Origin: a virus
Length of the DNA: 23,607 nt
Virus record (IMG/VR): IMGVR_UViG_3300009431_000140
Coordinates: 1 to 23,607 of that record
Direction: 5' to 3' (one strand)
Shown: positions 1-20,046 of the stretch, piece by piece
Position numbering within the stretch: the stretch's first letter is position 1
Layout: each line of letters begins with the position of its first letter
Position numbers and translations under genes: made by a program
Notes under the pieces: generated by a model
Seen by the model: only the letters and a program-made list of their open reading frames with translations
Databases searched by the model: none
Told to the model about the DNA's origin: nothing

Positions 1-327
1 CTTCGTGAGGATTTGCCAGAGCAGACGCGGCGTGTCGCGGATCACGTCCCACGCCTGGCTTCGCCACCCGCTCGGCACGTCGTCGTGGAAGAAATCCGAC
101 CACGGACAACAGAAAACGCGGTAGCGGATGCCGGCCGATTCGGCTTGGGCGTTCCATCGCCACGGGTTCCGCCACGTGTCGGTCCGGATGATCTTGGCTG
201 GATCGTGTCCGAAGCGGCGTTGTTCGCGGAACATATAGCAGTTCGCGCAGCCGGCCGAAACGGGCGTGCATCCGCGCCACGGGTTCCACGTGTGGTCGGT
301 CCACAGGATTTTCGAGTTCTCACCCAT
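1..327 (-). CDS. DUF5131 (phage Gp37/Gp68) family protein, 3' part cut by window edge
   Basis: The first 109 residues are visible and the frame is open to base 1, so the C-terminal part lies outside the window. Near residues 14-31 there is a Trp-rich stretch followed by three cysteines (C20, C27, C30), the last followed by Tyr. Further on come an NPW motif, an FCCPWSDFFHDD segment and a VIRDTPRLLWQILTK segment. This pattern is typical of DUF5131, which is common in phages. Its biochemical role is not settled; the clustered cysteines suggest a metal or Fe-S site. The start is the ATG at 325-327, and the bases just upstream come from a repeat (338-370), so the ribosome binding site is weak. It is the most downstream visible gene of the leftward early-type cluster. 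I am confident of the family and not of the function. Confidence 0.85.
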   Translation of the reverse strand, partial: MGENSKILWTDHTWNPWRGCTPVSAGCANCYMFREQRRFGHDPAKIIRTDTWRNPWRWNAQAESAGIRYRVFCCPWSDFFHDDVPSGWRSQAWDVIRDTPRLLWQILTK

Positions 328-337
328 CGTGCGGTTC

Positions 338-370
338 TTTCGTGCTTGGGTCTTTCGTCCTTCGTCATTC
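338..370. repeat. Dispersed ATGACGAA/TTCGTCAT-type repeat, copy 1
   Basis: On the plus strand this reads as TTCGTGCTTGGG, then TCTTTCGTCC, then TTCGTCATTC. Related copies sit at 9910-9986, 10251-10295, 15531-15562 and 16961-16994. This copy lies between the DUF5131 gene and the small gene upstream of it. I associate this family with planctomycete intergenic DNA, from memory and without a search. Confidence 0.6.
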
Positions 371-381: not shown

Positions 382-615
382 TTACGGCCGGCCGAATAGG
401 ACGGTCATTTCGTTCGGCAGCCGCTCGGTCAGGTCGGCGCCGATGCGGCGCTGCATGTCGAGGCTGGCCTTTTCGAGTTCACCGGGCAGCGGGGAAATCG
501 TGAACGTCTGCGCCGTGGTGTCCAGAATGCGGCGCAGCACGTGTTGAAACGCGGTAGCGACCCGGCCGCCGTCGAGGGCCAAAAGGCTGTCGATGGTTAG
601 TTCTTTTAACGTCAT
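382..615 (-). CDS. Small phage protein of unknown function (77 aa)
   Basis: A 77-residue protein whose ATG (613-615) overlaps the stop codon of the HD-domain gene as ATGA, so the two are probably translationally coupled. It has an LDGGRVATAFQHVLRRI segment near residues 13-30 that looks like an amphipathic helix, then a Thr/Pro-rich middle and a charged C-terminus. I do not recognise a named family. The coupling to the HD-domain gene and the position before the DUF5131 gene suggest an early or nucleotide-metabolism accessory protein, but this is only context. Confidence 0.7.
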   Translation of the reverse strand: MTLKELTIDSLLALDGGRVATAFQHVLRRILDTTAQTFTISPLPGELEKASLDMQRRIGADLTERLPNEMTVLFGRP

Positions 616-1241
616 CGTGGTTTCTTCCTTTGCGGCTTGGACGCGGCTTGGGGCTCCGCGGCGTCGGCCGCGGCGAGCAGGTCGTAAAACCGTGATATGT
701 AGCGGTCGGCCGCCGTGTTGTGCGGCCAGCAGTCTTTCACCCAGCAGCCGGCGGCGTAGCGTTCCTCTTTCGTGCTGATTTCGCGGCCGATCGCCGCGGC
801 GCCGCCGGGCAGCCACCGCTCGGCCTCGGCGACCAGCAGCCGGTCGTCGGCCTCGGCGATCGTCTCGGCTTCGGCCGGCGTCGGCACGTCGAACAGGGCC
901 TTGTAGCAGACGGCTTGCACGCGGTCGACGATCGCCGCCACGGCCGGGCAAGCCGTCTTGAGCGGTTGGTTGATGTCGCCGGTGAACGCTTCGCCCGAGT
1001 CGTGCAACAGCCCGAGAAGCTGAACGCGCGGGCCGTGGCCGTCTTCCTCCAACAGTCGAGAGACGGCGACCGAATGCTGCGCCACGCCATACGGCGCGGT
1101 CAGGTGGCCCGTGAATCGGCAAAGTTTGCCGAGGGCTTGGGCGACCACCACCAGCGAAACTTCGTCCGGGTCCGGATTGGCCAGGTCGAACCACGTCCAG
1201 CCGAAGGTGCCTATACTGGTCGGGGTGAACGTCCCGGGCAT
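612..1241 (-). CDS. HD-domain phosphohydrolase, YfbR/phage type
   Basis: A 209-residue HD-domain protein. A short N-terminal part with FDLANPDPDEV (about 18-28) leads into RFTGH (42-46), then QHS (55-57, first metal His), LLHDSGEAF (78-86, the HD pair at 80-81) and an EADDRLL segment around 130 that supplies the last Asp. This order matches YfbR-like 5'-deoxynucleotidases and phage HD proteins of similar size, which hydrolyse (d)NMPs or dNTPs. The substrate cannot be read from sequence. The phage dATPase DatZ is also an HD protein, but no PurZ partner is visible here. The start overlaps the end of csrA by 31 bases and has a poor ribosome binding site, which fits translational coupling. The C-terminal tail is Ala/Lys/Arg-rich. 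Confidence 0.85.
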   Translation of the reverse strand: MPGTFTPTSIGTFGWTWFDLANPDPDEVSLVVVAQALGKLCRFTGHLTAPYGVAQHSVAVSRLLEEDGHGPRVQLLGLLHDSGEAFTGDINQPLKTACPAVAAIVDRVQAVCYKALFDVPTPAEAETIAEADDRLLVAEAERWLPGGAAAIGREISTKEERYAAGCWVKDCWPHNTAADRYISRFYDLLAAADAAEPQAASKPQRKKPR

Positions 1242-1423
1242 GGCTTGGGCCTTTCGTCAATCGGGGACACGGTGGGCGGGCCGAGTTCTTCGCGGGCGAT
1301 GGGCACGCCGTCGGGCGCGTCGATCCCCAGCCGGACACCGCCGCCGGCGATGCGAATCACGGTGATGGTGGTGTCGTCGCCGATCAGAATCCTTTGGCCG
1401 GGCTTGCGAAATAAGACGAGCAT
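1211..1423 (-). CDS. csrA: Phage-encoded CsrA, RNA-binding translational regulator
   Basis: A 70-residue protein that starts exactly as CsrA does (MLVLFRKPGQRILIGDD). L4 and R6 are present, as is the REE motif with R44. These are the residues of the dimeric beta-barrel that contact GGA motifs in RNA. CsrA binds ANGGA sites in mRNA leaders, often over the ribosome binding site, and usually represses translation. The core is complete to about residue 50, followed by a 20-residue Pro/Arg-rich tail. The ribosome binding site AAAGGA lies 7 bases upstream of the ATG. The leader has its own hairpin terminator (1539-1577) and an ACATGGA motif at 1529-1535. The gene overlaps the HD-domain gene downstream. 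A phage-borne global regulator could retune host or phage late mRNAs. Confidence 0.93.
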   Translation of the reverse strand: MLVLFRKPGQRILIGDDTTITVIRIAGGGVRLGIDAPDGVPIAREELGPPTVSPIDERPKPCPGRSPRPV

Positions 1424-2779: not shown

Positions 2780-2798
2780 TGGCACCCAATATGGCACC
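2780..2798 (+). repeat. Paired TGGCACC direct repeat, candidate integrase arm site (left)
   Basis: Two copies of TGGCACC at 2780-2786 and 2792-2798, 12 bases apart, followed by TTCTTG. The same arrangement occurs on the other side of the tRNA half at 3028-3046. A single inverted GGTGCCA lies at 2598-2604. Pairs of short direct repeats flanking a core site are typical of arm-type integrase sites. Confidence 0.5.
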
Positions 2799-2900
2799 TT
2801 CTTGCGCCCCGTGTCGGCCAGCGCAGCACAAAAGCCGGTTAGCAAAAACGCCTATACCCGCAAAATCCGGCCATTATCGGACCAAAATACCGGAACGACG

Positions 2901-2957
2901 TTGATTCGAAATCAGGTGCCGGTTTACCGGTTGAGGGTTCGAATCCCTTGCCCTCCG
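2901..2957 (+). other. attP core: 3' half of tRNA-Ser(CGA)
   Basis: The sequence can be folded as the 3' half of a class II tRNA: an anticodon arm with loop TTCGAAA (anticodon CGA, serine), a long variable arm built on CCGG/CCGG, a T arm around GGTTCGAAT, the acceptor strand GCCCTCC and discriminator G at 2957. No matching 5' half (expected to begin GGAGGGC) lies upstream. Many phages carry such a tRNA 3' end as the att core so that integration rebuilds the host tRNA. It ends 26 bases from the integrase stop codon. The tRNA fold is read by eye. Confidence 0.8.
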
Positions 2958-2983
2958 CTCGTAAGCTCTTTGGCAATTTGGTT

Positions 2984-4177
2984 TTACGTCGATCCCTCTT
3001 TTTCGTCGTTTTCCGGCTCGGGCGGCTTGGCACCTAAAGTGGCACCTTCTTGGGGCGCCGGCCAGACCTTCGAAGCGAGTTGCTGCGCCTGCGGTTCGTA
3101 GTAGTAGTTGAGCGTCGTGTCGGCCGTCTTGTGTCGCATCCATGCGGCCAGTTCCGGGAGGGACAATGTCGCACCCATCCGAGTAGTGAAGGCGCGGCGG
3201 CCTATATCGTGGCTGCTGGCGTACTTCTTGGTCGACGGGTCGGTGATGACTCCGGCTCGTTCGCCGATGCGGCTTATCATGCGGCCGACCGTCTTGACGC
3301 CCATTTGGTTGCCGTGGCGGCCCGGCATCTTGAAGACCGGGCCGTGACGTCGCTTTTCGGGCGTTTCGCAACAGAGAGCCCAGAACTCGGGCGTTATCGG
3401 CTGGATTCGGTCCGTGTGGGCCTTTTCGCCTTCACTGAGTATGCGAACATACGGCATACCCTCGTACGTGTCGATCGACAGCAGTTCGCCGGCGTTCCAG
3501 GACAGGGTCAGAAGCTCCTCGACGCGAAAGCCGCTGTGCCACAATCCCCGCAAAAAATAGGTCCAGCGGTCCGGGTCGCGGCGGCGGATTTTCGGAACGG
3601 TCATTAGTATCCGCTCGAACTCTTCCACGGTGATCGGCCGGGCCCGGGCCATTTTCGACTTGCCTTTTGCCCGGGCCGGCATCCGGATTTTCGGCACCTC
3701 GTCCAGAATGCCGACGTCGTGAGCCCAGCCCAACGCGGCATGTATCGTGCCTAAATACGTGCGAATCGACGCCTCCGCGAGACCCTTGGCCCGTAGTTCG
3801 GCCTGCCACCGACTCAGACAATCGGCTGTGATTGACTGGATGGGTGCAGTGGGCTGGATGAAACGCTGTAGACCATTCGCCGCCGTGCGCCAACTGCCCA
3901 ACGATTTCGGTTTCAGTGATGGCAGGTGTTCCTCTTCGTACCGCTTGCGGAACACGATCCAGTCCATTTCATCCTGGTCAATCAGGCCGTCCTCGATGTC
4001 CAGGGCCAGACGGGCGGCGGCACGTTCGGCATCGCGCTGTCGACCGCATTCGCTGGATCGCTCGCGCCATTTCCGGGTGATCGGGTCTCGCCACCGCAAC
4101 ACCAGGTGTTTGCGGCCTGATCGCCGGACCACCTTCACGCGGACGCCGTCGGCTGGTCGTCGTCGTCGTCGAGGCAT
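2984..4177 (-). CDS. int: Tyrosine-recombinase phage integrase
   Basis: A 397-residue tyrosine recombinase that would catalyse integration at a tRNA-Ser gene. Residues 10-65 are basic and resemble an arm-binding N-terminal domain. Residues of about 73-165 form the SAM-like core-binding domain (SLKPKSLGSWRTAANGLQRF onward). The catalytic domain has R218 in HSGFRVEELLTL, K252, an SSHDIGRRAF box with H323, MRHK with H349, and Y358 in NYYYE, nine residues after that His. The H-to-R spacing in the second box is H-x3-R instead of the usual H-x2-R. The start at 4175-4177 has AAGGA just upstream, and the gene overlaps the preceding excisionase-like gene by 43 bases. Its 3' end lies next to the attP core. 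Confidence 0.95.
   Translation of the reverse strand: MPRRRRRPADGVRVKVVRRSGRKHLVLRWRDPITRKWRERSSECGRQRDAERAAARLALDIEDGLIDQDEMDWIVFRKRYEEEHLPSLKPKSLGSWRTAANGLQRFIQPTAPIQSITADCLSRWQAELRAKGLAEASIRTYLGTIHAALGWAHDVGILDEVPKIRMPARAKGKSKMARARPITVEEFERILMTVPKIRRRDPDRWTYFLRGLWHSGFRVEELLTLSWNAGELLSIDTYEGMPYVRILSEGEKAHTDRIQPITPEFWALCCETPEKRRHGPVFKMPGRHGNQMGVKTVGRMISRIGERAGVITDPSTKKYASSHDIGRRAFTTRMGATLSLPELAAWMRHKTADTTLNYYYEPQAQQLASKVWPAPQEGATLGAKPPEPENDEKEGST
3028..3046 (+). repeat. Paired TGGCACC direct repeat, candidate integrase arm site (right)
   Basis: TGGCACC at 3028-3034 and 3040-3046, again 12 bases apart and followed by TTCTTGG. It lies inside the last codons of the integrase gene (residues GATLGA) and mirrors the pair at 2780-2798 across the tRNA half. 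Confidence 0.5.
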
Positions 4178-4392
4178 TCGGAATTCCTTTCGATCCAGAG
4201 CCGGTAATTGTGGCCGGTGGTCTGGTATGTATTGCCGATCTTTATGTGGAAAACCCCCTGGTATCTCCCGTGGCTCGGGAAAAACACGTTCGCCAAGACC
4301 CATTCGACCGAGTGGCCGAGAATCGCCGCAAGTCGTTTGTGCGTATAAGTTACGTCGTCGTGGATTTCTCCATCGTGGCCGTTTTTTGACAT
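4135..4392 (-). CDS. Putative excisionase / small DNA-binding protein
   Basis: An 85-residue protein directly upstream of and overlapping the integrase. The ATG at 4390-4392 has GGAG 7 bases upstream, better supported than the longer frame to 4518. The YTHKRLAAILGHSVEWVLANVF segment (about 16-37) looks like a winged-helix/HTH recognition unit, with FHIKIGNTYQTTG as a possible wing, and the C-terminus is acidic (DDDDD). Size, position and fold suggest a MerR-like excisionase or directionality factor that would control the integrase. It could instead be a small transcription regulator of the operon. Confidence 0.65.
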   Translation of the reverse strand: MSKNGHDGEIHDDVTYTHKRLAAILGHSVEWVLANVFFPSHGRYQGVFHIKIGNTYQTTGHNYRLWIERNSECLDDDDDQPTASA

Positions 4393-6717: not shown

Positions 6718-7587
6718 TTACCACTTGGTCGGAATGCCGAGCGCGGAAAACGCTTTCTTCTCCCGCACTCGAAAGCTAATGTACTCCGGATCGGCGTCGG
6801 GGTCCGCCTTGGCACCATTGCCGTCGAGCCGCACGGGTTCGTTCAGGGGCATCCCCTCCGCAAGGATCAGCTTTTCTTCCCCGTCGTCCAACTCGAAAAA
6901 CCCGACGTCCATCCGGCTGACCTTCTCCCAGCCGTCGAGGTCGATCTCGAAGGGTAGCGACAACTCGAAAAAGTCGCCGATCGCGGCGTGTGTCATCTCC
7001 CGCCACATATACGGCTTGAAGACAACCGTGCCGGGCGCCCGGTCGTAGAATTGCTTTGAGTTACAACAATAGATCATCGCGTCGAGCGTGGTGAAATCGA
7101 GCGCGGCCACGTTCGTAACGATCTGCATTGTCGGATTGCCCGCGTCGAGCGTAAACGGCGGGTCGAACGGCGCCCCGGCCGAGTTGGCGAACGGCTTGTC
7201 GTCGAGGTCCTTTTCGAGGGCCTTCTGGAACACGCGGAACCCGCCGCTCCGCCGGGGCGGTTTTTCCAGCGGGTTGTCGTACTGCTTGTCGTCGCCCTTC
7301 TTGCGGGGTTGGCTCGAAAAGGGGATCGTCACCCGCCACCGCTTTCGCGATTGCCGCACGTCGATCAGGTCGGCCACGGCTTCGCCGGCGAACGCGCCCA
7401 AGTCGATGTCGTTTCCGATCGCGTAGACCGAATCGGGCCGCGGGATCCGGTAATCGGAAAGCACAGTCAGGCCGCCGTCGTCCGGGTCGTTCGTCCAGAC
7501 GCGCAGGTCGACCGAAAACAACCGCTCGCCGGTCGCCGTGACCCGCGCCTGTTTGAACCGTTCGACCTGAACGCTGGTAACCGTCAT
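6718..7587 (-). CDS. Distal tail / baseplate hub-type protein
   Basis: The start is the ATG at 7585-7587, which overlaps the tape measure stop as ATGA; the frame stays open to 8154 but that part is the shadow of the tape measure. The 289-residue product opens with a beta-rich segment (VERFKQARVTATGERLFSV), has a basic middle (about 115-150) and ends with alternating strands. Its place immediately after the tape measure is where siphoviruses encode the distal tail (Dit-like) protein or hub. The assignment rests on gene order; I see no decisive motif. Confidence 0.75.
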   Translation of the reverse strand: MTVTSVQVERFKQARVTATGERLFSVDLRVWTNDPDDGGLTVLSDYRIPRPDSVYAIGNDIDLGAFAGEAVADLIDVRQSRKRWRVTIPFSSQPRKKGDDKQYDNPLEKPPRRSGGFRVFQKALEKDLDDKPFANSAGAPFDPPFTLDAGNPTMQIVTNVAALDFTTLDAMIYCCNSKQFYDRAPGTVVFKPYMWREMTHAAIGDFFELSLPFEIDLDGWEKVSRMDVGFFELDDGEEKLILAEGMPLNEPVRLDGNGAKADPDADPEYISFRVREKKAFSALGIPTKW

Positions 7588-9236
7588 CCGTTGGCCCCCA
7601 CTTCCTCGATCCGGACCGGCTCTTGCCGGTCGATCGCATCGACTACACGGACGATGTTTCGATTCAATTTTTCGAGTTCGGCCAGTTGCCGCGCTTCTCG
7701 GCGTTGGCCGGCCGTTTGCGTCTGGTTGAGAAACCGGATTGCCTCGACGCTTCCTTTGTCCATCCCCGCCGGCCCGCGCGACGCGGCGGCCGCGGTCGAA
7801 CCGGGCGTATCGAATCCGAACACGTCGCGCCGGAGGTCCGCATCGGCCGCGGCAATCGCCCGGGCGTACGTCTTCCGGTCGATCGCCCCGACGTCGAGCA
7901 GTTCTTTCAGGTCGTCGCGCTTCTTGGCGTCGCGCTCGAGGTCGGTCATTACCTCGGAACGCACCGACGCGGCCCGGCTCTCGATGTCGGCCCGCCGCTG
8001 TGCCGCTTCGGCCGCTTGCTTTTCGGCGGCCGCCTGGTCTTCGCGCAGCTTGGCGAGTTTGCCCATGTAGTACCGCGCATCGGCCAGGGCCCGGTCGCTC
8101 GCTCCCCGGGCTTTCAACTCCCAAAGCTGGATTTCTTCGCGGCTCATGCCCCATAGGTGGATCTGTTTACCCAGCGCCATAGTCACCTTGTGGACTTCGC
8201 CGCCGATCGAGCTGTCGAACATGGCCCGTTTATTGGCCGAGAGCGCCCGATGCCACGTCTTGACGTCGAGCACGCCTTCCCGATAGAGGCGGTTGATTTC
8301 GTCCTGCTCGGCGGCCAGGCGTTCCAGGGGCCGGATGGTCGATTCGGCAATCTTCCCCGCGGCCGTTTCCATCTTGGCCATTTCTTCGGCCGTGGCGGCC
8401 GTGGCGGCGGCCGCATCGGCCACACCGTCCTCCCAGGGCCCGAACGAGGCGTGGCTCGCACCAAAACTCTCGCCCGAGACGGCGTATGTCAACTCGTTGG
8501 CCATGGATTCCATCGCCGGCGCCATCTTGGCCGTAAACTGTTTCCACCACCCGCTGCGCGCCTTCTCGAACCGGTTCCACGCGTCGTTGCTGGCCTCGAC
8601 GGCCGCCACCTGGTCGGTGGTAAGCGTCTGGTTGAGCGCGGCGGCCTGGTCGGCCATTTCTTTCAGGCCCGCCGAGCCGGCGGCCAGCGTGTTGACCAGG
8701 TCGACGCCCTCGGCGTCGAACAGCTTGAACGCCAGCCGCACCCGGTCGGCCGGGGCCTCGACGGACTCGAACGCGTCGGCGATCTCGTAAAGCGCCGCGG
8801 CCGGGCCGGCCGCTTTCAGCTTGGCCGCATCGAGCCCCAGTTCGCGAATCGCCCCTTGGGCTTCGCCCGTGCCTTTGGCCGCCTCAGCCAGCCGGCGGGT
8901 CATACGCTGCAGGCTCATGTCGAGCTTTTTGTTCTCGACGCCCGTCTGCTCGCCGGCGAACCGCAAGGCCATCAGCTCGTCGGTCGCCATGCCCAGCTTG
9001 GCCGCCGTCTTGCCGATCTTGTCGAGCACCTCGGCCTCTTGCCGCATCCGCGCGAACGCCCGGGCGGCCGCGGCGGCGGCCGCGGTAGCCACCGCCCCCC
9101 AGCCGATCATCCCCAGCCGGCTCTTGCTGGTCGCCGCGGTCAGCTTGCCCAGATACCCGGCGCCTTTGGTCGCGCCGCGGGCCAGGCCCCCGGTGTACAT
9201 GACGACGTTGACGGCGAGTTCATCGAGAATGGTCAT
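7584..9236 (-). CDS. Tail tape measure protein
   Basis: A 550-residue, largely helical, Ala-rich protein. It has a Gly-rich N-terminus, a hydrophobic Ala-rich segment (about 40-62), long coiled-coil regions (for example MRQEAEVLDKIGKTAAKLGM and REDQAAAEKQAAEAAQRRAD) and a globular C-terminus. Such proteins set tail length and occupy the tail lumen. At 550 residues it is short, which predicts a short tail tube. It follows the frameshifted chaperone gene by 6 bases and overlaps the next gene by 4. The bases around its start (TAATGACGAATGACC) resemble the dispersed ATGACGAA repeat. Confidence 0.92.
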   Translation of the reverse strand: MTILDELAVNVVMYTGGLARGATKGAGYLGKLTAATSKSRLGMIGWGAVATAAAAAAARAFARMRQEAEVLDKIGKTAAKLGMATDELMALRFAGEQTGVENKKLDMSLQRMTRRLAEAAKGTGEAQGAIRELGLDAAKLKAAGPAAALYEIADAFESVEAPADRVRLAFKLFDAEGVDLVNTLAAGSAGLKEMADQAAALNQTLTTDQVAAVEASNDAWNRFEKARSGWWKQFTAKMAPAMESMANELTYAVSGESFGASHASFGPWEDGVADAAAATAATAEEMAKMETAAGKIAESTIRPLERLAAEQDEINRLYREGVLDVKTWHRALSANKRAMFDSSIGGEVHKVTMALGKQIHLWGMSREEIQLWELKARGASDRALADARYYMGKLAKLREDQAAAEKQAAEAAQRRADIESRAASVRSEVMTDLERDAKKRDDLKELLDVGAIDRKTYARAIAAADADLRRDVFGFDTPGSTAAAASRGPAGMDKGSVEAIRFLNQTQTAGQRREARQLAELEKLNRNIVRVVDAIDRQEPVRIEEVGANG

Positions 9237-9242
9237 TCGTCA

Positions 9243-9898
9243 TTACCCGTATACGGCCCGGTGGTGGGCCTCTAAATCCGCGCCGCCGATCCGTTCCCGG
9301 CCGTCGTCCACCTCGGCCGCCCGGCCGGGGATAAACGCGTCCGGGTCGATTCGCACGCCGCGTGAGCCAGCGACGGTCGAGCAAATCGCGCCCGCTTGGC
9401 CCCAGCCGTCGATCGGTTCTATCCGGTCTTCTGCCCGCCACAATTCAAGCTCAGCCGCGTCGACCCTTTCGCGGCATTCGCGGTAGGTCATGCCGAGAGT
9501 GCGGGCCAGCTTCAACCAGAAGCGTTTGCGCGGGTCGCTTCGGAGTTTTTTTCCAGCTTCTCGACGTCGTGTTTTCCCAGCCGGCTCAGTCGTGACGCCG
9601 CGTCGAACAACCGCTCGATCGGCCCGGCGTCCGCATCGGCCAGCACGGCGATTTCCTCGGGCGTGTAGCCGTGCGGCACGCCGTCGGCGTCGCATAGGCT
9701 CCATGAGACCACGGTCGCACGCACGCCGACCCACGCGTCGGCGCGGTCGGTCCCGGACCGGAAAATCTCGTCGAGCAAATCGCGTTGCTTGCTCGATATA
9801 CTCCGGACGAAAACGTCGCCGTCCCACTCGGGCACGGGAACCGCCTCGGCACCCATCCGGGCCGCGGCGGCTTTCAAAATCTCGGCTTTGGTTAGCAT
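9243..9898 (-). CDS. Tail assembly chaperone long form (gpGT-like), made by -1 frameshift
   Basis: The short chaperone frame (9898 to 9512) carries A AAA AAC in phase at 9551-9545. A -1 slip there joins the first 118 residues to the overlapping frame that ends at 9243, adding 100 residues (LRSDPRKRFWLKLARTLGMT onward) and giving 218 in total. The extension has no start of its own and contains the Trp/Glu-rich ELELWRAED segment common in T-domain extensions of siphovirus chaperones. A perfect 6-bp stem, GAAGCG/CGCTTC (9541-9536 with 9524-9519), follows the slip site closely. The G/GT pair bridges tail tube subunits and the tape measure during assembly. The position right before the tape measure fits. 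Confidence 0.88.
9512..9898 (-). CDS. Tail assembly chaperone short form (gpG-like)
   Basis: A 128-residue acidic protein, the unshifted product of the chaperone gene. The ATG at 9896-9898 has GAGG 6 bases upstream. It begins with a helix (MLTKAEILKAAAARMGAE) and has the pattern of small siphovirus chaperones that act as assembly factors and are absent from the virion. The last 10 residues are read only when no frameshift occurs. It lies between the small gene at 9981 and the tape measure. Confidence 0.88.
   Translation of the reverse strand: MLTKAEILKAAAARMGAEAVPVPEWDGDVFVRSISSKQRDLLDEIFRSGTDRADAWVGVRATVVSWSLCDADGVPHGYTPEEIAVLADADAGPIERLFDAASRLSRLGKHDVEKLEKNSEATRANASG
9519..9551 (-). promoter_or_regulatory. 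-1 programmed frameshift signal
   Basis: The slippery heptamer A AAA AAC occupies 9551-9545 in the correct phase (codons GAA AAA AAC). A stem-loop, 6 bp with an 11-base loop, lies at 9541-9519, about 3 bases downstream. The frame it opens is exactly the -1 frame. Confidence 0.88.
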
Positions 9899-9909
9899 CG
9901 CGTTGCCTC

Positions 9910-9986
9910 AATGACGAATGACTAAACCCTTCGGACTTCGGGCTTTGGGCTTCATTCGTGCTTGGGTATTTCGGATTTCGTCATTC
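9910..9986. repeat. Dispersed ATGACGAA/TTCGTCAT-type repeat, copy 2
   Basis: AATGACGAAT at the left end and TTTCGTCATT at the right end form an inverted pair around CTTCGGACTTCGGG and GTGCTTGGGTATTTCGG. It fills the gap between the 85-aa gene and the tail chaperone gene and supplies the last codons of the former. Confidence 0.65.
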
Positions 9987-10238
9987 ATCCCCGTCCGGGT
10001 CCTCGACCACCTCGGGCGCCACGGACGTCTTATTCGGCGCGCCGATTTCCCGTTCGACCAACGCCTCGATGCCGGCTTTCAACTCCGGCGAGACCTTCAC
10101 AATCAGGTTGATCGGCCGGCCCGGCTTGGTGCCGCAATAGCCGAGCCGTTTCTTCCCGAGGAAAATCTGGTTCTGGTCAAACCGCGTTCCGTCGTCGCCG
10201 ACGTGCGGCACAATCTTGAGTTGTTCGGGGGTGGGCAT
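9981..10238 (-). CDS. Small tail-module protein (85 aa)
   Basis: The start at 10236-10238 is preferred over 10292 because AAGGA lies 7 bases upstream and the longer frame would consist of dispersed repeat. The product has a central RPINLIVKVSPELKAGIEAL region and an acidic end (EDPDGDE). No family is recognised. It lies between the tail tube and the tail chaperone genes, where many siphoviruses encode small accessory or regulatory proteins. Confidence 0.65.
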   Translation of the reverse strand: MPTPEQLKIVPHVGDDGTRFDQNQIFLGKKRLGYCGTKPGRPINLIVKVSPELKAGIEALVEREIGAPNKTSVAPEVVEDPDGDE

Positions 10239-10250
10239 TGTTGGTTCCTT

Positions 10251-10295
10251 ATTCGTCATTCTTTCTGGCTTGGGTGTTTCGGATTTCGTCATTCC
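10251..10295. repeat. Dispersed ATGACGAA/TTCGTCAT-type repeat, copy 3
   Basis: ATTCGTCATTC at the left and ATTTCGTCATTCC at the right flank CTGGCTTGGGTGTTTCGG. It fills the gap between the tail tube gene and the 85-aa gene. Confidence 0.65.
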
Positions 10296-10296
10296 A

Positions 10297-10713
10297 TTAC
10301 GTACTGGACGTGAACGTCGGCCCCGTCTTGCCGTCCCAATTCCAGGTCACGCGGGCCTTGCGGACCTGGTTGTTGACCAGGGCCCCGAGCTTCACTTTCG
10401 CTATAAAGCCGGTGCCGGCCAGCGTGGCGCCGGTCTCGCCGCCCACGGGAACCGGGTAGGTAATCGTGCCGGTCTGGACCGTGCCCCGCGACGGCGGGTT
10501 ATCCGGGTCGCAAAAAATTTCCAATTCGAGCGGGTCCCAATTGTCGAGGTCGCCCGGCTCTTTCGGCACGTTGCCGGTGGTGGCCAGCACGTCGTCCTCG
10601 ATCACGGGCAACTCGGCCCCGCCCGGGTCCAGCTCGTAGATTTCGGAGAACGCGCCGTCGGTCGAAAGAACGAACGTGCCGGCGTTGCCGGTTCGGCCGC
10701 TTTTGCTTGTCAT
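10297..10713 (-). CDS. Major tail tube protein
   Basis: A 138-residue beta-rich protein. It starts MTSKSGRTGNAG and includes a WDPLELEIFCDPDNPP segment near residue 60 and a KVKLGALVNNQVRKARVTWNW segment near the end. Small siphovirus tail tube proteins have this composition and sit between the tail terminator and the chaperone gene, as here. AAAGGG lies just upstream of the ATG. It would form hexameric rings of the tube. Confidence 0.75.
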   Translation of the reverse strand: MTSKSGRTGNAGTFVLSTDGAFSEIYELDPGGAELPVIEDDVLATTGNVPKEPGDLDNWDPLELEIFCDPDNPPSRGTVQTGTITYPVPVGGETGATLAGTGFIAKVKLGALVNNQVRKARVTWNWDGKTGPTFTSST

Positions 10714-10725
10714 GTCAAAGGCCCT

Positions 10726-11142
10726 TTACGTAACCAGGGTTCTTGAATAGGTAACTCGAAACTCGATCATCACGCGGCACAGCGGCCGGTCGCTGCCGTC
10801 CCGGGCCGGTTCTTTCAAATCGCGCGGCCCGGCGGTCAGGTGCGAGCCGTCGACCAGCACGTCGCCCATCTGCGCCCGTTGCCCGTGGATCGCGCGGCGG
10901 CACGCCTCGGCCAGCGTGGCCGCCACGGCCGACGTGCCGCCGTAGGCGTCGATCTGCACGCGACCGCTGGCCGTCTCGTCGTCGCCGTCGAGCGTCTCGT
11001 CGCCCGCGCCGCCGATCCCCGCCACCCGCACGGCCGGCAGCGGGTCGCCTTGCTCGATCCGCCCGCGCCGCACGCGGTCGGATACTAGATCCGTTACGGC
11101 GGTGGTCGCAAGCAGGTGTTGGATTACGCCGTTAACGAGCAT
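10726..11142 (-). CDS. DUF3168-like tail completion / terminator protein
   Basis: A 138-residue protein of DUF3168 type: an N-terminal helix (NGVIQHLLATTAVTDLVSDRV), PLPAVRVAGIGG, a SGRVQIDAYGGT strand and helix in the middle, and a CRVMIEFRVTYSR strand at the end. Such proteins cap the tail tube and join it to the head. GAGAGG lies 7 bases before the ATG. Order next to the gp10-like gene supports the assignment. Confidence 0.82.
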   Translation of the reverse strand: MLVNGVIQHLLATTAVTDLVSDRVRRGRIEQGDPLPAVRVAGIGGAGDETLDGDDETASGRVQIDAYGGTSAVAATLAEACRRAIHGQRAQMGDVLVDGSHLTAGPRDLKEPARDGSDRPLCRVMIEFRVTYSRTLVT

Positions 11143-11158
11143 GGGTTAACCTCTCCGA

Positions 11159-11614
11159 TCATTCCATCCGTGCCGTTTCCGCAATCGCCTTGCGGGCTTC
11201 GTGACGGAACCTCTGCGCCACCTGGTCGCGGACGGCGTCGGACGCCGGCCTCAGGAAGGCGTTGGGCTCCATGTTCACCGTGCCGAGTTCCTGAAACCCG
11301 GCGTAAAATTGATCCCCTGCAAACAGCTTGTCGGACGTCTGGACCGACACGCCCACCACGCCCTTGCGACGTCGCCGGCCGAATTGGGCCATTGCCCGAA
11401 GCCTCAGGCTCTCTTCCAACTCGCCCGAGTCGACCGGGGCTTGGGCCTTGGTCTCGTCGAGTAATATCCTGGCTGCCCGCCGAATCGCTTTTCGTTTCAG
11501 TTTCTTGGCCACCCGCGGGCCGAACGCGGCGAGCGTCCTTTCCAGCCGGTCGACGCCTTTGATCGTCACCCCGCTGGCCGTCGTGTTTTGGGTCGCCGGT
11601 CCGCCGCGTATCAT
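11159..11614 (-). CDS. HK97 gp10-like head-tail joining protein
   Basis: The start is the ATG at 11612-11614, which overlaps the stop of the head closure gene as ATGA; the frame upstream of it is a shadow. The 151-residue product has the HK97-gp10 pattern: VKGVD-like opening (TIKGVDRLERTLAAFG), a basic helix with APVDSGELEESLRLR, a YAGFQELGTVNMEPNAFLRPA segment and a C-terminal helix. Family members act in joining the head and tail. Confidence 0.85.
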   Translation of the reverse strand: MIRGGPATQNTTASGVTIKGVDRLERTLAAFGPRVAKKLKRKAIRRAARILLDETKAQAPVDSGELEESLRLRAMAQFGRRRRKGVVGVSVQTSDKLFAGDQFYAGFQELGTVNMEPNAFLRPASDAVRDQVAQRFRHEARKAIAETARME

Positions 11615-11949
11615 GCCGCCGTTTCCTTGCAAACCAGAACGTGCCACCGCCGGCGGCCGTCCGGGTTGGCAATCGAGGTGATGTTCAAGTAACGGGCCCC
11701 CCACTTGAGCCGCATTTCACGGGTCAGGCCGGCCAGGTACCGCAGCGTGACAACGTGCGAAGCCGTGGCCGTCGTCTTGCCGGCCACGTCGCCCTCCGTG
11801 CCGGTCATGTCGACCACGCCGGCCGCCACGCTCCGCGGCCCGAACGTCACCCACCGATCGGTCGGTGTGTTGGCATCGTCGACCGTCGCCGGCGCGTTTT
11901 GCTGGACCGTCACCCGGTGTCGCAGTTTGCCGGCCGTGAATCCTTTCAT
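11611..11949 (-). CDS. Head closure / head-tail adaptor protein (SPP1 gp16-like)
   Basis: The start at 11947-11949 overlaps the stop of the connector gene as ATGA. The 112-residue product begins MKGFTAGKLRHRVTVQQ, has a WVTFGPRSVAAGVVDM stretch and ends in RRWHVLVCKETAA. The KLRHRVTVQ opening and the beta-barrel pattern match head-tail adaptor proteins of the SPP1 gp16 type, which close the portal after packaging. Confidence 0.85.
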   Translation of the reverse strand: MKGFTAGKLRHRVTVQQNAPATVDDANTPTDRWVTFGPRSVAAGVVDMTGTEGDVAGKTTATASHVVTLRYLAGLTREMRLKWGARYLNITSIANPDGRRRWHVLVCKETAA

Positions 11950-12536
11950 GCCACGAACCCCCAGCCGAGCGATTCGGCGATCGTGCGGACCGAGAGTTCT
12001 ATTTCGCTGGAAATCGTGCCGATCGCCACCGCTTCGCGGTTCTCCCACCAATGGCCGAACAGCAGCCGGATGGCATGTTTGGCCCGTTCGGGCACGGCGT
12101 CGCGGTCGGCATAGCCGGCCGTAAACCGCACGGTGAGAGCGTCGTCGCGGTCTTGCGTGGTCGGCCAATAGGTGTTGACTATCGGCACGATCCAACCTTG
12201 CTCGTCGCTCGGCGCCATCACGGTAAAATCGGTTGTCTCTTCAAGCGTCTGCGCGTCGCCGGCCGTGTCGTAATAGGACACGCTTGTGACGCTCGCCAAC
12301 GGCGGGCTCGGCAGGTAGAGCCGATCCCGGCCCAAGGGGAATCCGCCCTCGGTCAGGTCGAACACGGTCGGCGTCCAGGTTCGCCCGCCGGCGATCGACG
12401 CGGCGAAAAACTCGGCCGCCGCACGCATCACACGGTCCACCTCGGCGTCGTCGTCGGTCGAGTCGATGCGCATTTGCGCTTTGGCATCGGCCAGGCTAAT
12501 CGGCGTGATGGTCGGGCGTGTGAAGATCGACAGCAC
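11946..12536 (-). CDS. Head-tail connector (gp6 / phiE125 gp8-like)
   Basis: A 196-residue protein with an N-terminal ITPISLADAKAQMRID motif and a following DDDAEVDRVMRAAAEF helix, then ALTVRFTAGY in the C-terminal half and ERAKHAIRLLFGHWWENREAV. These are the marks of the gp6-like connector that docks on the portal ring. The start is GTG (12534-12536) with AAGGGA upstream. It is coupled to the head closure gene. Confidence 0.88.
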   Translation of the reverse strand: MLSIFTRPTITPISLADAKAQMRIDSTDDDAEVDRVMRAAAEFFAASIAGGRTWTPTVFDLTEGGFPLGRDRLYLPSPPLASVTSVSYYDTAGDAQTLEETTDFTVMAPSDEQGWIVPIVNTYWPTTQDRDDALTVRFTAGYADRDAVPERAKHAIRLLFGHWWENREAVAIGTISSEIELSVRTIAESLGWGFVA

Positions 12537-12548
12537 GGCGTGTGTCCC

Positions 12549-12752
12549 TTATCCTTTCGTCGGATCGGCGGCCGCGTTCTCGGCCGGTGCGGCGGTCGCC
12601 GTCTCGGCCGGCCGCTTGGCCGGCTTGCGGACCGCTTGGGCCTGGCCGGCGTCGATCATCCGTTTCCCCTCGGCCGCCGGAACGTCGATCACGTCGCCCA
12701 TCGATTGGGCGAAGTTGTTTCCGGCTCGGCTGGTCAGAAGTTTCACTTTCAC
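12549..12752 (-). CDS. Small head-module protein (67 aa)
   Basis: A 67-residue protein with a GTG start (12750-12752) and GGGAG 9 bases upstream. Residues 1-42 (KVKLLTSRAG, DVIDVPAAEGKRMIDAGQA) look like the small helix-sheet fold often found between capsid and connector genes, and the Ala/Pro-rich tail is probably flexible. Role unknown; it may decorate or stabilise the head. Confidence 0.7.
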   Translation of the reverse strand: MKVKLLTSRAGNNFAQSMGDVIDVPAAEGKRMIDAGQAQAVRKPAKRPAETATAAPAENAAADPTKG

Positions 12753-12829
12753 GGGTCGGTTCTCCCATCGGCGGCCACGCCGGCGAATCGGTGCCGACGT
12801 GGCGTGGTTTCCACTTGGGCCAAGGCCGC

Positions 12830-14176
12830 TTACGATGCGGCCTGAATCAAGTGCTTGACGGGATTCGTGCCGGCGTCGATCAGTTCGCCGTCCATCCGGC
12901 CGAGGGCCACGAATCCCTCTTGATCGTACTCGGCGTAACGCTCGACCAGCCGCTTGAGCCGGACGACGGCCACTTCGCGAATGACGTACTTCTTGAACGC
13001 GCCGAACAGGACGGTCTTGGCGGACGCCTCGATCGTGCCGGCCATGTCCTGGTTGATCTGGACCGGCTTGTCCAACAGCCGATCGGGCTGCCCGCTTTGC
13101 AGGCCCGGCTGCCAGATGTACTGGTTGTCGCCGTCTTTCAACTTGCGAAGCGCCAGCGCGACCGAGTCGTGGAACATGAACCCGGCGTCATTCCGATAGG
13201 CCGGGTCGACGCTGTGAAATAGGTCGATCAGTTCGTCGGCCGTGATGGCCGCCACGGCGGCCGCCGTTTTGCCGGCCGTACTGGACGTGACGATCCCGTT
13301 CGGCTGGCTCGATCCGGTGCCGGTCGTTTGGTGCGTGTTGTAGATTCGGGCCAGCCGTTCACCCAGAAGCGAGCCGAGGATCATGGCCATGTTGAACGCC
13401 GAGTCTTGCAACAGTTCGGCCGAGACGCGCACCAGCTTGGACGTGTACTTGTACGCGTTGAGCGTCTTCTGCCCGACGGCCACGTCCTGCTCGCTGTCCT
13501 CCACGTTCTCGGCGATCAGGGCGCCCGAGTTGCCCGTGTCGTCGACCGTCGGCCATTCCAGGTCGTTGCCGGTCGCGGTCCGCAGGACGGTTGCCACCTG
13601 CCGAACGCCGCCGAAATCCAAGAGGGCCTGTTCGAGGTTCGGCACGAAACCGGTCGGCGAGGTATACCCGCCGGCCGCGTCGGTGCCGACCGACATAGCC
13701 CGGACCAGCCGGCGCACCCGGTCGTAGCGCGTTTCGAGCCCGACGTCGAGCGTTTTGCGGTTCGGGTTCACGCCGCAACGGCGGGCCGCGTCGCGTTGGG
13801 CGTCGGTGGTCTCACACCCCAATTGGGTCAGACACCACGCCTGCATGGCCATCGCCCGGTGCTCGTCGGTGACCGCCTGGTCGCCGTCGCCGCCGGCCGC
13901 ATTCTCGAGCGCCCGGCGGGCCGCGTCGCGGGTCTCGGCATCGTCGATCGCGTCCAGGTCGTCGACCACCTGCCGGCCTTCGGCCTCGACCGCCTCGGCC
14001 CGCTCGGCCATTTCGATCTGGCGCGACAGGCGGTTATAGTCTTCATTGATCGCCGTCCAACGGGCCTCGTCCTCGTCGGTCCACTCGTCGGGCTTGTCGT
14101 GGGCCTTGTCGGCCAGCTCCCGCATTTCGCCGGTCAGCTTGTTTCGCTTTTCGCGAATTTCCAGGGCAGTTGCCAC
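12830..14176 (-). CDS. Major capsid protein, HK97 fold
   Basis: The GTG at 14174-14176 is chosen over the upstream ATG because AAGGA lies 8 bases before it. The 448-residue protein has an N-terminal coiled coil (about 1-110, the delta domain that acts as scaffold and is removed by the protease). The HK97 core follows from SVGTDAAGGYTSPTGFVP near residue 150, with the EWPTVDDT segment, the HQTTGTGSSQPNGIV region, FMFHDSVALALRKLKDG, and a final TVLFGAFKKYVIREVAV. It has its own promoter (14398-14425) and a structured leader of about 215 bases. The adjacent protease gene fits HK97-type maturation. Confidence 0.95.
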   Translation of the reverse strand: MATALEIREKRNKLTGEMRELADKAHDKPDEWTDEDEARWTAINEDYNRLSRQIEMAERAEAVEAEGRQVVDDLDAIDDAETRDAARRALENAAGGDGDQAVTDEHRAMAMQAWCLTQLGCETTDAQRDAARRCGVNPNRKTLDVGLETRYDRVRRLVRAMSVGTDAAGGYTSPTGFVPNLEQALLDFGGVRQVATVLRTATGNDLEWPTVDDTGNSGALIAENVEDSEQDVAVGQKTLNAYKYTSKLVRVSAELLQDSAFNMAMILGSLLGERLARIYNTHQTTGTGSSQPNGIVTSSTAGKTAAAVAAITADELIDLFHSVDPAYRNDAGFMFHDSVALALRKLKDGDNQYIWQPGLQSGQPDRLLDKPVQINQDMAGTIEASAKTVLFGAFKKYVIREVAVVRLKRLVERYAEYDQEGFVALGRMDGELIDAGTNPVKHLIQAAS

Positions 14177-14184
14177 GGTTCTTT

Positions 14185-14190
14185 TCCTTG
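14185..14190 (-). promoter_or_regulatory. Capsid ribosome binding site with CANGGA (CsrA-type) motif
   Basis: CAAGGA on the minus strand, 8 bases before the GTG start of the capsid gene. It matches the CsrA core CANGGA. Ribosome binding sites often look like this by chance. A second copy, CATGGA, is in a hairpin apex at 14251-14256. Confidence 0.4.
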
Positions 14191-14223
14191 CGCTGTTCGC
14201 CGCCGGGTGCGAGGCGCAAAGAA

Positions 14224-14293
14224 AAACGGCCGGCACTCGACGGCGATGGGTCCATGATTTGGAGAAACCACCGCCGACAAGAGACGGCCGTTT
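14224..14293 (-). terminator. Nested hairpin in capsid leader, terminator- or attenuator-like
   Basis: On the minus strand an outer stem AAACGGCCG/CGGCCGTTT (14293-14285 with 14232-14224) encloses an inner stem CGGCGGTGG/CCATCGCCG (14276-14268 with 14249-14241, one G-U pair). CATGGA (14256-14251) lies at the apex. The outer stem runs into TTTTTCTTT, as in an intrinsic terminator. It lies about 100-170 bases after the start site predicted from the 14398-14425 promoter. Confidence 0.6.
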
Positions 14294-14397
14294 AACGATC
14301 GGTCCACTTGTCGAACACGCGAAAAGGCGGCTGGCGTGTAACGCTCAAACCGCAGATTGGTAACACTTTTCGCGGAGTTATTCAGTTGTCAGTCGGG

Positions 14398-14425
14398 ATT
14401 ATAGCAAGAGGTCACGCCAAGTCAA
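14398..14425 (-). promoter_or_regulatory. Sigma-70 promoter for the capsid gene
   Basis: On the minus strand TTGACT (14425-14420), 16 bases, then a perfect TATAAT (14403-14398) preceded by TG (extended -10). It overlaps the end of the protease gene (stop at 14412). The predicted start near 14391 gives a leader of about 215 bases to the capsid GTG. Confidence 0.8.
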
Positions 14426-15044
14426 GCTCGCAAAGACGGGCCCGAGCCCGTTTTTTCAGCCCCTCGGCTTTCCGGCGGCCGCTCTCCGCTTTCCATTGCT
14501 CGTAGCCGGCCCGGGCTTCGTCCGTTTCCCCGCCGCTCCGAACGCCGGCCGTGGTCGCCTGGTAGGCCGGGAACGTCACCGGGCCGACGTCGTACAGTTC
14601 GACCGCTTCCAAGAGCCGCACCTCGGGCCCGTCGTCGCCGCCGTCGATCCAGGTCACCCGCTCGCCCCGGAACGAAAAGCTCGACCCGTCCAAATCGCCG
14701 CGTTCGATCTTCCGCGCGGCGCTGGCGCTGTCGGCGTCGTCCTCGTCGATGTCGATCTCGTAGCGCAGGCCGACCGCGTCGACCGAAAGCCGCATCGTGC
14801 CGGCCGCCGTGCGGCCCAAGAGCCGGTTGGCGTCGTGGTTGAACAGGCCGCGGACGTCGTCCTCGGCGATGGCTCGATCGAAGGCCCCCGGGGCGATCCG
14901 TTCGACCGTGTCGCCCCAGAGTTGGTATTCGGTCCCCTCGTCGTCCGGATCGTAGAAGACGGCCCCGTAGCCGACAATCATCCGTTTGCCGTCGGCGCGG
15001 GTCTCGATCCGGGCCCGGCCGGTGGGTGTATATCGTTTTTCCAT
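14412..15044 (-). CDS. HK97-type prohead protease
   Basis: A 210-residue serine protease of the HK97 gp4 type. After a short strand (YGAVFYD), FDRAI is followed by GLFNHD (H70, catalytic His), then LDGSSFSF (S121-S122, catalytic Ser region) and LLEAVELYDVGPVTFPAYQ near residues 144-162. It cleaves the delta domain of the capsid during maturation. Residues of about 184-198 (QWKAESGRRKAEGLKK) look like a translated planctomycete repeat made of GGAAAGC-type units, so the C-terminal tail may be an added extension. The start lies 3 bases beyond the portal stop. Confidence 0.93.
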   Translation of the reverse strand: MEKRYTPTGRARIETRADGKRMIVGYGAVFYDPDDEGTEYQLWGDTVERIAPGAFDRAIAEDDVRGLFNHDANRLLGRTAAGTMRLSVDAVGLRYEIDIDEDDADSASAARKIERGDLDGSSFSFRGERVTWIDGGDDGPEVRLLEAVELYDVGPVTFPAYQATTAGVRSGGETDEARAGYEQWKAESGRRKAEGLKKRARARLCELDLA

Positions 15045-15047
15045 TGG

Positions 15048-16805: not shown

Positions 16806-16995
16806 GGTCGGCTCCTCTCTTGTTGACGTGTCGATAGCAGCCGAACAGGCCGCCGGCCCCCGCGGCGATCAGGCACGCCGGCGGATAGACCCACCAAAGG
16901 CCGACGGCGACCAGGCCGGCCGAGACGACGGCGACCAGGTCGGCCAGGCCCCACGCGCGTTTGTGTCTTTCGTCTTTCGGTTTGGGCTTCGTCAA
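16792..16995 (-). CDS. Small membrane protein between terminase and portal (67 aa)
   Basis: The start is TTG at 16993-16995, which overlaps the large terminase stop. The first 13 residues (KPKPKDERHKR) are encoded by a dispersed repeat (16961-16994). Two short hydrophobic segments follow (GLADLVAVVSAGLVAVGLWW and ACLIAAGAGGLFG), so it is probably a membrane protein. Its end overlaps the portal start. Function unknown; translational coupling in a packaging operon is the only context. Confidence 0.55.
   Translation of the reverse strand: MTKPKPKDERHKRAWGLADLVAVVSAGLVAVGLWWVYPPACLIAAGAGGLFGCYRHVNKRGADRGNP
16961..16994. repeat. Dispersed ATGACGAA/TTCGTCAT-type repeat, copy 5 (coding)
   Basis: TTGTGTCTTTCGTC, then TTTCGGTTTGGGCTTCGTCA. 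It provides the start codon region and first residues of the small membrane protein and abuts the terminase stop. Confidence 0.5.
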
Positions 16996-18647
16996 AACGT
17001 CAGCACCCCCCGATCTTCGTAAACGCTCCGGCCCTCGTCGCCCGCTTCGGCCAGGGCCAGGCCCATTATGGTGGCGATAATGCCGTCGATTTTCCGATGG
17101 TCGTTTTTCTTCGGCTTGATCGGCCGTTTATTCGCGTTGTTATCGCTCTTGACGTTGACATGCCCGGCCTGCCAGCCGAGCACCGGGTGCCCGTTGTGAT
17201 GCAACCGGCCATCGAGAACCAACGCCTCGAACGTGTCGGTCGGCCCGGCCAGGTTCATCATGGATTGCGAGAATTCGACCCGCTCGATCCCCAGTTCGGC
17301 CTCGATGCGGGCGGTGATTTCTTCGGCGTATAGCTTGTCGTAGGCGACGGCCGCGGTGCGGAACGGGTCGACAATCTCGGCAATGTCGTCGAACACCCGG
17401 TTCTGGTTGATCGTCCGGCCCGGGATCAAGATCAGGTGCCCGTCGCTGGCCCATTGCAGGAAGCTGGCCAGGTGGTTCTTTTCCCGGGCCGTCTCTTCCG
17501 GCATCCAGAAATAAGGCAACACGCGAAACGCCTTACCGTCGTCATTGCGGAACACAAGCGAGAACGACGTCATGTCTTGCGTTTTCGATAAATCCAACCC
17601 CGACGAGGCCACCGCGCCGGCCAGGTCGGCCTCGCAAAACTCCCGCCGGCACGCCGACCAGTCGCCCGCTTTGAGCCACGGGTTGGTCGATTGCTGCCAG
17701 ATGTTCAGCCGGTACTTCTTGAACGTGGCGAAGTCGTCGACCGTCCGCCCGGCCCGTTCGCACACGCCGGCAAACTCTTCTCCATTGATCGTGGTCCCCC
17801 AACTCGGGTTTGCCGCCTTCCACACCTCCGGCTCTCGGCAATCGTCGTCGTTCGCATCCTGCGCGGCGCCGTGGTATTGAAACAAGAACGCCTCGTCGAC
17901 GATCTTTCCCGCCTCGACGTCCTGGCCATAATCAAACTGCCGCTTGCCGTAGCCGTCGGGGTTGTCGCCGGCCGTGGAGACTTCCAATTGCATCGGCTCG
18001 GATCGCGACGCGCCGGCGTATTCGATCACCTTGGCCAGCCGCTTGTCGACGACGTGCGTTTCGTCGATGATGATCGAGCCGTTGATTCCCTCCTGGCCCT
18101 TGATGTTATCTCCGGCCAGGATCGTATAGGTCGACCGGCTCGGCAGGTGCGTAATCTTGCCGGTCGATTTGTTGATCTTGCAGACCTTGCCGAGGGCCTC
18201 GGATTGCTCGACCATCGCCAAGGCGTGGGCGTGCATGATGGCCGCCTGCTGGCCGTCTTTGGCCGCGCTGAAAACCTTCTGGCCTTTCTCTCCGTCCGCG
18301 CACAGCAGATACAACCCGACCATCGCGGCCAGCGGGCTTTTTCCGTTTTTCTTCGGCACCCATAACGACGCCTTGCGGAACCGCCGCACCTCCCGGCCCC
18401 AGTGGTCGGACCACCGAACCCAACAGAAAAGCCGCGTCAAGAAGTCGCGTTGCCAATCCATCAGCGCGACCAACTCGCCGGCAAACTCGCCCTCGTAGAG
18501 CCGCAAATGCCCCTCGATGAAATCCAAAATCCCCGTGCCGTATTCGTTCGCCGCGCGCGAAAGGTCCACCCGGCAGCCGGCCCGCGCCGCCCGCTGGTCG
18601 GATTCGTTGCGAATCCAGTCTCGGGTTGTGTGGTCGATTGCGATCAT
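16992..18647 (-). CDS. terL: Terminase large subunit
   Basis: A 551-residue packaging ATPase-nuclease. Walker A is VPKKNGKS (97-104) and Walker B SIIIDETH (191-198, D195 and E196). The nuclease domain has D352 (GLDLSKTQD), D437 (VAYDKLY) and D521 (KIDGIIA). The motif set and the length match the HK97/lambdoid terminase family (Terminase_1). It cuts concatemeric DNA and pumps it through the portal. The small terminase lies 6 bases upstream and the next gene overlaps its stop. Confidence 0.97.
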   Translation of the reverse strand: MIAIDHTTRDWIRNESDQRAARAGCRVDLSRAANEYGTGILDFIEGHLRLYEGEFAGELVALMDWQRDFLTRLFCWVRWSDHWGREVRRFRKASLWVPKKNGKSPLAAMVGLYLLCADGEKGQKVFSAAKDGQQAAIMHAHALAMVEQSEALGKVCKINKSTGKITHLPSRSTYTILAGDNIKGQEGINGSIIIDETHVVDKRLAKVIEYAGASRSEPMQLEVSTAGDNPDGYGKRQFDYGQDVEAGKIVDEAFLFQYHGAAQDANDDDCREPEVWKAANPSWGTTINGEEFAGVCERAGRTVDDFATFKKYRLNIWQQSTNPWLKAGDWSACRREFCEADLAGAVASSGLDLSKTQDMTSFSLVFRNDDGKAFRVLPYFWMPEETAREKNHLASFLQWASDGHLILIPGRTINQNRVFDDIAEIVDPFRTAAVAYDKLYAEEITARIEAELGIERVEFSQSMMNLAGPTDTFEALVLDGRLHHNGHPVLGWQAGHVNVKSDNNANKRPIKPKKNDHRKIDGIIATIMGLALAEAGDEGRSVYEDRGVLTF

Positions 18648-18653
18648 TTTATT

Positions 18654-19100
18654 TCAATCCGCGGCCGGTTTCTCTTCCGGCCTTCCCTCTTCCGCGCCCC
18701 TTGCTCTCGCCGGAATCGAATCCTCCGGCTTCTCTTCCGGCGGGAAGTATTCGGCGACCCGGGCCGCCTCGATGGGGGTTATTCCAAACTTGGCCCCGAG
18801 CTTTTGTACCGCGTCGCCGTACTGCTTGACCGCCAGCCGGTTGTCGACGTCCAGCGGCTTCTCTTTGGCCGCCGCGATCGCCCGACACGACAGGTCGTAC
18901 AGTTCGCAAAGCTGGCGCAGCATGGCCGCCTCGGGGCTCTTGGCGGCGATCCGCCCGCCCAGCGGCCCGGCCATCACGGCCCGCCACATGGCCCTTTCGT
19001 TTTTCGTCAGGTTCGCCGGCGTCGGCGCACGCTTCACCGCCGGCGCCGGTCCAGACCGGTCGGGGCTCTTGCGTCGTCCACTTGTCGCCGTTCCTGGCAT
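18654..19100 (-). CDS. terS: Terminase small subunit, P27 family
   Basis: A 148-residue protein if started at the ATG 19098-19100, which has GGAAAG just upstream; a longer start at 19127 lacks a ribosome binding site. The N-terminus (PGTATSGRRKSPDRSG) is basic, as in P27-like small terminases. The APTPANLTKNERAMWRAV helix and the LRQLCELYDLSCRAI helix follow, then VQKLGAKFGITPIEAARV near the C-terminus. It recognises phage DNA for packaging. It lies between the HNH gene and the large terminase, a common order. Confidence 0.88.
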   Translation of the reverse strand: MPGTATSGRRKSPDRSGPAPAVKRAPTPANLTKNERAMWRAVMAGPLGGRIAAKSPEAAMLRQLCELYDLSCRAIAAAKEKPLDVDNRLAVKQYGDAVQKLGAKFGITPIEAARVAEYFPPEEKPEDSIPARARGAEEGRPEEKPAAD

Positions 19101-19136
19101 CTTTCCTATTTCTCGAGTCGATCGCATCGGAAAGCG

Positions 19137-19490: not shown

Positions 19491-19493
19491 CGC

Positions 19494-19976: not shown

Positions 19977-19982
19977 ATTTGT

Positions 19983-20046
19983 AGCTTTGAGCTATGGGCT
20001 ATGGGCTTCTCCAACCGCGCCAGCGCGTGGCTCATAGCGCATTGCT
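19983..20046. repeat. Intergenic repeat-like segment (GAGCTATGGGCTATGGGC type)
   Basis: A segment with tandem CTATGGG units at one end and an imperfect inverted counterpart GGCTCATAGCGC at the other. It fills the gap between two virion genes. It resembles short palindromic planctomycete repeats, from memory. Confidence 0.4.

Follow-up and report, generated by a model that had tools for sequence, protein, structure and literature searches.

The stretch of DNA analysed here (the window) is a full IMG/VR record of 23,607 bases, which was handled as linear; the record has no reported terminal repeat and the fragment is not closed. A second IMG/VR contig (L002) is 99.8% identical to window positions 7064-23607 and extends 2,664 bp further to the right without reaching the left end of the window, giving a phage genome of at least 26.3 kb. 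The window encodes a major head protein and a terminase large subunit, a marker of tailed phages (Table 1). The terminase is less than 60% identical to records of the searched phage collection and the integrase had no match in the annotated phage collection; the lineage is little known, with no close record in the collection searched. Just past the right end of the window, L002 carries a trypsin-like protease gene (PF13365; L002 1861-2952, plus strand) and, at the end of the contig, a methyltransferase-like gene. Synteny between DUF5131 and this methyltransferase-like gene did not close the circle, as both occurred in only 6 of 80 relatives and in mixed order, and exact-match probes, one taken at the left end and one in the arm on the integrase side, found no second copy or closing contig among viral contigs.

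Table 1. Genes and sites of the window that bear on the attachment site
Feature	Position	Strand	Basis or remark
DUF5131 gene, truncated at the left end of the record	1..327	-	phrog_2045
HD nucleotidase (5'-deoxynucleotidase type)	612..1241	-	phrog_318, E 2e-38
CsrA-like regulator	1211..1423	-	PF02599, E 1e-19; phrog_9500
Putative pair of integrase arm-type sites on the P arm, TGGCACC-N5-TGGCACCTTCTTG	2780..2805	+	22/26 identical to right-hand pair
Predicted attP core: tRNA-Ser(CGA) 3' half, T33/anticodon loop to discriminator base	2906..2957	+	Pattern scan and in-silico joins
Tyrosine integrase	2984..4303	-	phrog_1, E 2e-26; PF00589, E 4e-07
Putative pair of integrase arm-type sites on the P' arm, within the integrase gene at its 3' end	3028..3053	+	Like-placed pairs in integrated relatives
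Small conserved gene overlapping the integrase start	4135..4392	-	In L107 and L121, relatives lie directly upstream of integrases
Major head protein	12830..14236	-	phrog_10, E 7e-77
Terminase large subunit	16992..18647	-	phrog_9, E 2e-118; tailed-phage marker

Next to the integrase stop, with 27 bp between the tRNA end and position 2984, lies the 3' half of a tRNA-Ser(CGA), TCGAAATCAGGTGCCGGTTTACCGGTTGAGGGTTCGAATCCCTTGCCCTCCG. It holds the anticodon loop from U33 (anticodon CGA at 2907-2909), the 3' strand of the anticodon stem, a long class II variable arm, the T arm, the 3' acceptor strand (GCCCTCC, 2950-2956) and the discriminator G (2957). No tRNA 5' half lies upstream of 2906, and ARAGORN found no complete tRNA in the window. 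A preliminary description of this DNA had placed such a half, lacking its 5' part, at 2901-2957 beside the integrase stop. Its location, identity, missing 5' half and position next to the integrase all held; its start did not, since the core shared with hosts begins between 2902 and 2906. Identity with nearly all hosts begins at T33 (2906), and only in hosts with a T at position 32 (L068, L108) does it extend to 2902. Joining the 5' halves of four host genes (L105, L106, L107, L108) in silico to the window from 2906 onward produced a complete tRNA-Ser(CGA) of 83-84 nt in each of the four cases, indicating that the fragment can functionally replace the 3' half of a planctomycete tRNA-Ser(CGA). 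A split or intron-containing tRNA was ruled out, as no Rfam intron family matched and the halves act as attachment sites in relatives; the only Rfam matches in the window were low-scoring and fell under gathering scores.

A scan for the core with the anticodon side, T arm and acceptor end fixed (CGAAATCAGGTGCC, a gap, GGGTTCGAATCC, NNNN, CCCTCC) across 84,980 genomes, one per species and 257 billion bases in all, matched 38 stretches. All 38 are planctomycete by record title, so the match is not due to chance, and planctomycete tRNA-Ser(CGA) genes with a matching 3' half, which the preliminary description proposed to look for, do exist. Most of the matches are complete tRNA-Ser(CGA) genes, and about ten are 3' halves in which unrelated sequence replaces the 5' half. 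Planctomycetes are probably the host group of the phage. Few genomes share the variable-arm loop GGTTTACC of the window: among 397 genomes of the order, a 40-base stretch containing it was found, with one mismatch, in G180 alone. G180 thus has the closest host variable arm, and there the tRNA is complete and is followed by a related integrase. An attB for exactly this phage was not found among the genomes searched, and the core pattern had no match in viral contigs.

Peptide patterns revealed no close relatives of the integrase in IMG/VR or the GTDB contig collection, and relatives were located by whole-genome tblastn. Their homology to the integrase begins near residue 43, and the true start may lie near 4177. 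The closest integrases in the order, at L107 (G228; 49% identity) and L108 (G134; 49-50%), both adjoin a complete tRNA-Ser(CGA). The same holds for weaker relatives at L105, L106 and L111; at L108 the identity with the window runs on beyond the end of the tRNA (CGTAAGCTCTTTGGC). Position and conservation make the product of the small gene overlapping the integrase start a candidate excisionase or recombination directionality factor.

The mechanism of integration at tRNA genes is textbook knowledge, and in integrated relatives of the window element the tRNA next to the integrase is complete and the opposite end holds the fragment. An integrase-like reading frame was found on the 3' side of 12 complete sites versus 2 half sites, some of these integrase matches being only 22-25% identical. 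Together with the complete tRNAs beside both closest integrases, this count agrees with the premise of the preliminary description that the integrase-side junction receives the host 5' half. Both integrase-bearing half sites sit inside chromosomal contigs, of 0.84 Mb in G134 and 6.9 Mb in G163. The G134 half site (C2:569477) is the middle one of three sites, with TGCAACA arms on its left and TAGCGCAGCT arms on its right, and the G163 half site (C1:4669827), followed by an integrase, lies 15.7 kb past a complete tRNA-Ser that has its own integrase-like gene. Both are junctions of elements stacked in tandem. Because half sites with an integrase also occur within chromosomes, the order of left arm, core and right arm is in itself no proof of a free genome. 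In several genomes the 3' half of the tRNA is present two to four times, and integrative elements of Pirellulales commonly stack at tRNA-Ser(CGA) (G134 C2:517827-592494, G163 C1:4654103-4671137 and the G003 contigs).

The core is flanked on both sides by arm-type repeats, present at the sequence level. The left copy, TGGCACCCAATATGGCACCTTCTTGC, begins about 126 bp before the core, and the right copy, TGGCACCTAAAGTGGCACCTTCTTGG, about 71 bp after it; the two form a direct repeat with 22 identical positions of 26, whereas 2000 first-order Markov shuffles of the left flank gave at most 18 and the rest of the window at most 17. These TGGCACC repeats probably bind the integrase. Integrated relatives have pairs of like geometry and element-specific motif to the right of attL and again to the left of attR, namely TGTTGTAA in G030, TGTAGCCA in G011, TGTTACC in G050, TGCAACA and AGCGCAGC in the two tRNA-Ser elements of G134, and TCCCACCC/TCTCACCC at both ends of a tRNA-Lys element of G134. 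Thus one motif marks both ends in six integrated relatives, five at tRNA-Ser and one at tRNA-Lys. We also compiled seven stacked-type junctions, defined as half sites with right-hand arm pairs or a right-side integrase (L152, L144, L083, L091, L066, L077 and L150); the left motif differs from the right in six of them, the exception being L150 (G228 C431). The match between the arms of the window therefore favours a single element on both sides. The arm rule has exceptions or sometimes escapes detection: a simple scan found no matching arms in four further pairs of full and half sites from draft genomes (G009, G002, G017, G012), which may be different elements of one array or may have been missed by the scan. 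The site at G228 C431:8213 is a tRNA-Ser half in a chromosomal bin and, like the core of the window, is flanked on each side by the same arm pair, here TGTAGCCAA. Its contig measures 13.9 kb and has an IstB-like gene, and the site may be either an additional attP or a point where two like elements join.

The genes to the left of the core lie on the same strand as the structural genes and all belong to phage protein families, in keeping with the phage-type genes that the preliminary description had seen on the far side of the tRNA half; GC content is similar across the attachment site (66% to the left, 65% to the right). The description had also assigned these genes to the same phage, and the chromosome of G134 supports that assignment. 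There, the tRNA-Ser element that runs from a complete tRNA (C2:517827) to the half site at 569477 ends in an HD nucleotidase (567441-567839) and a CsrA gene (568490-568633) in the strand and order of the window, and a second element runs from a complete tRNA-Lys with an integrase (C1:262836) to an exact 48-base copy of the tRNA-Lys 3' end at 317311. In both elements of this one chromosome, HD and CsrA lie about 1-2 kb inside attR and are ordered and oriented as in the window. Relatives of the HD nucleotidase occur in only 3 of the 397 genomes of the order, so it is not a common host gene, and as HD and CsrA form the conserved end of two integrated elements, the left genes belong to the phage. 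Circularising an element of the G134 type would give the order HD, CsrA, half tRNA, integrase, as found in the window. No HD nucleotidase was found in viral contigs or in ten viral records with related terminases. The tRNA-Lys unit of G134 carries AcrB-type, ArsP permease and ABC genes, and none of the ten large proteins scanned in it was a phage structural protein; with island-type cargo of this kind, we call it an integrated element rather than a prophage.

These observations strongly support reading the site as attP, and the L-core-R arrangement posited in the preliminary description is sustained by the complete tRNAs on the integrase side of relatives, the matching arms and the common origin of the left genes. 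A molecule with left arm, core and right arm together does not represent a single lysogen, and it is likely that the genome was not integrated; excised, replicating or packaged DNA would be the simplest source of an intact attP. Taken as a whole, positions ~2780-3053 are quite probably the attP of a temperate tailed phage with a Pirellulales-type planctomycete host, sequenced in an excised state (circular, replicating or packaged).

An intact attP could also be read out of a chromosome if two tandem copies of the same, or a near-identical, phage were joined at one tRNA-Ser(CGA), because such a junction has exactly the attP sequence and the matching arms do not argue against it. Tandem arrays at tRNA-Ser(CGA) do occur in related chromosomes (three sites in G134, and G163), and G003, whose separate contigs hold one full site and three half sites, is likely another. 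However, the chromosomal arrays that we saw mostly pair unlike elements with differing arm motifs, arrays are rare in the Islander survey (125 versus 3919 islands; PMC4383910), no contig that joins a complete tRNA-Ser to this integrase was found, and the core pattern and a 27-base integrase-gene probe had no match in viral contigs, so we regard such a repeat as unlikely.

Stacking of two different elements in a chromosome, with the left 2.9 kb derived from another element, has precedents at this very locus, in the unlike arms of G134 C2:569477 and the half site followed by an integrase at G163 C1:4669827. The arms of such a junction are expected to carry different motifs, as in six of the seven stacked-type junctions, whereas those of the window share one, and HD and CsrA form the attR-side module of the very G134 element that carries one of the two closest integrases; we therefore consider this origin very improbable. 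Equally improbable is an assembly chimera at the tRNA fragment. Repeated tRNA 3' halves in host genomes could join unrelated contigs, but the arm motif match spans the join and the gene order is that of the integrated relatives after circularisation.

For the favoured reading, a free phage carrying attP, we propose that the tyrosine integrase would attach to both arms at their TGGCACC direct-repeat pairs, and that its strand exchange with the host tRNA-Ser(CGA) gene would take place within the anticodon-loop part of the core, where the crossover presumably lies. The phage would thereby split the host gene and supply a substitute 3' half: the integrase side would gain the host 5' half, which would leave an intact tRNA next to the integrase, and the host 3' half would be displaced to the other end, beyond the HD nucleotidase and CsrA genes. 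The product of the small gene at 4135-4392 may, by its position, act as the excision factor, and the molecule sampled would be the free form.

This scheme resembles the class A islands of the Islander survey, which use anticodon-loop tRNA sites and make up 2083 of 3919 islands; there too, an element with an attP of ~250 bp carries a 3' tDNA fragment, crossover occurs in the anticodon loop region, and integration restores the tRNA by the integrase and displaces the host fragment (PMC4383910). The window phage differs in having a probable planctomycete host and in being known from unclosed sequence rather than from an isolate. In mycobacteriophages, paired arm-type repeats of direct orientation differ between related integrases; the attP sites of Giles, L5 and Cluster K likewise have pairs of short repeats (~11 bp) on either side of the core, which are directly oriented in Giles and L5, and their arm sequences vary even among related integrases at one site (PMC3203893). 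In contrast to these phages (PMC3203893), the window has an integrase of another lineage, another tRNA and a P' arm that falls within the integrase gene at its 3' end. The Pirellulales elements of G134 (L108) and G228 (L107) share with the window the tRNA, the layout and an integrase that is 49-50% identical, and G134 also shares HD and CsrA at attR, but no relative of the window terminase was among the matches listed for either genome. Tandem integration of SGI1 likewise produces half-site junctions between neighbouring elements that resemble attP (PMC2297512); in the window the arms match each other, making a junction of unlike elements unlikely.

These results give an uncultured planctomycete phage an attP defined at the sequence level, the tRNA that it targets and a probable group of hosts. 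Matching arm repeats can distinguish a genuine attP from the junction between stacked elements, and the comparison can be applied to other metagenomic records in which a tRNA half adjoins an integrase. More speculatively, tRNA-Ser(CGA) could be a recurrent stacking site in Pirellulales at which an attachment end, with the integrase on one side and HD nucleotidase and CsrA on the other, is interchangeable between phages and cargo islands, element-specific arm codes would keep stacked neighbours separately excisable, and a phage-borne CsrA beside attP would link carbon-storage regulation to lysogeny; we hold this combined proposal to be doubtful at present.

Two kinds of repeat lie elsewhere in the phage genome. 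An imperfect palindrome of ~87 bp (TTGGAAATTGGAAATTCCTTGTTGGGTGTTGG...) has three intergenic copies (window 22288-22374 and 22624-22709, and L002 509-603) and looks like a small dispersed hairpin repeat. A second dispersed repeat, ending in TTCGTCATTC, occupies short intergenic gaps at window positions 330-370, 9946-9986, 10254-10294 and 15522-15562.
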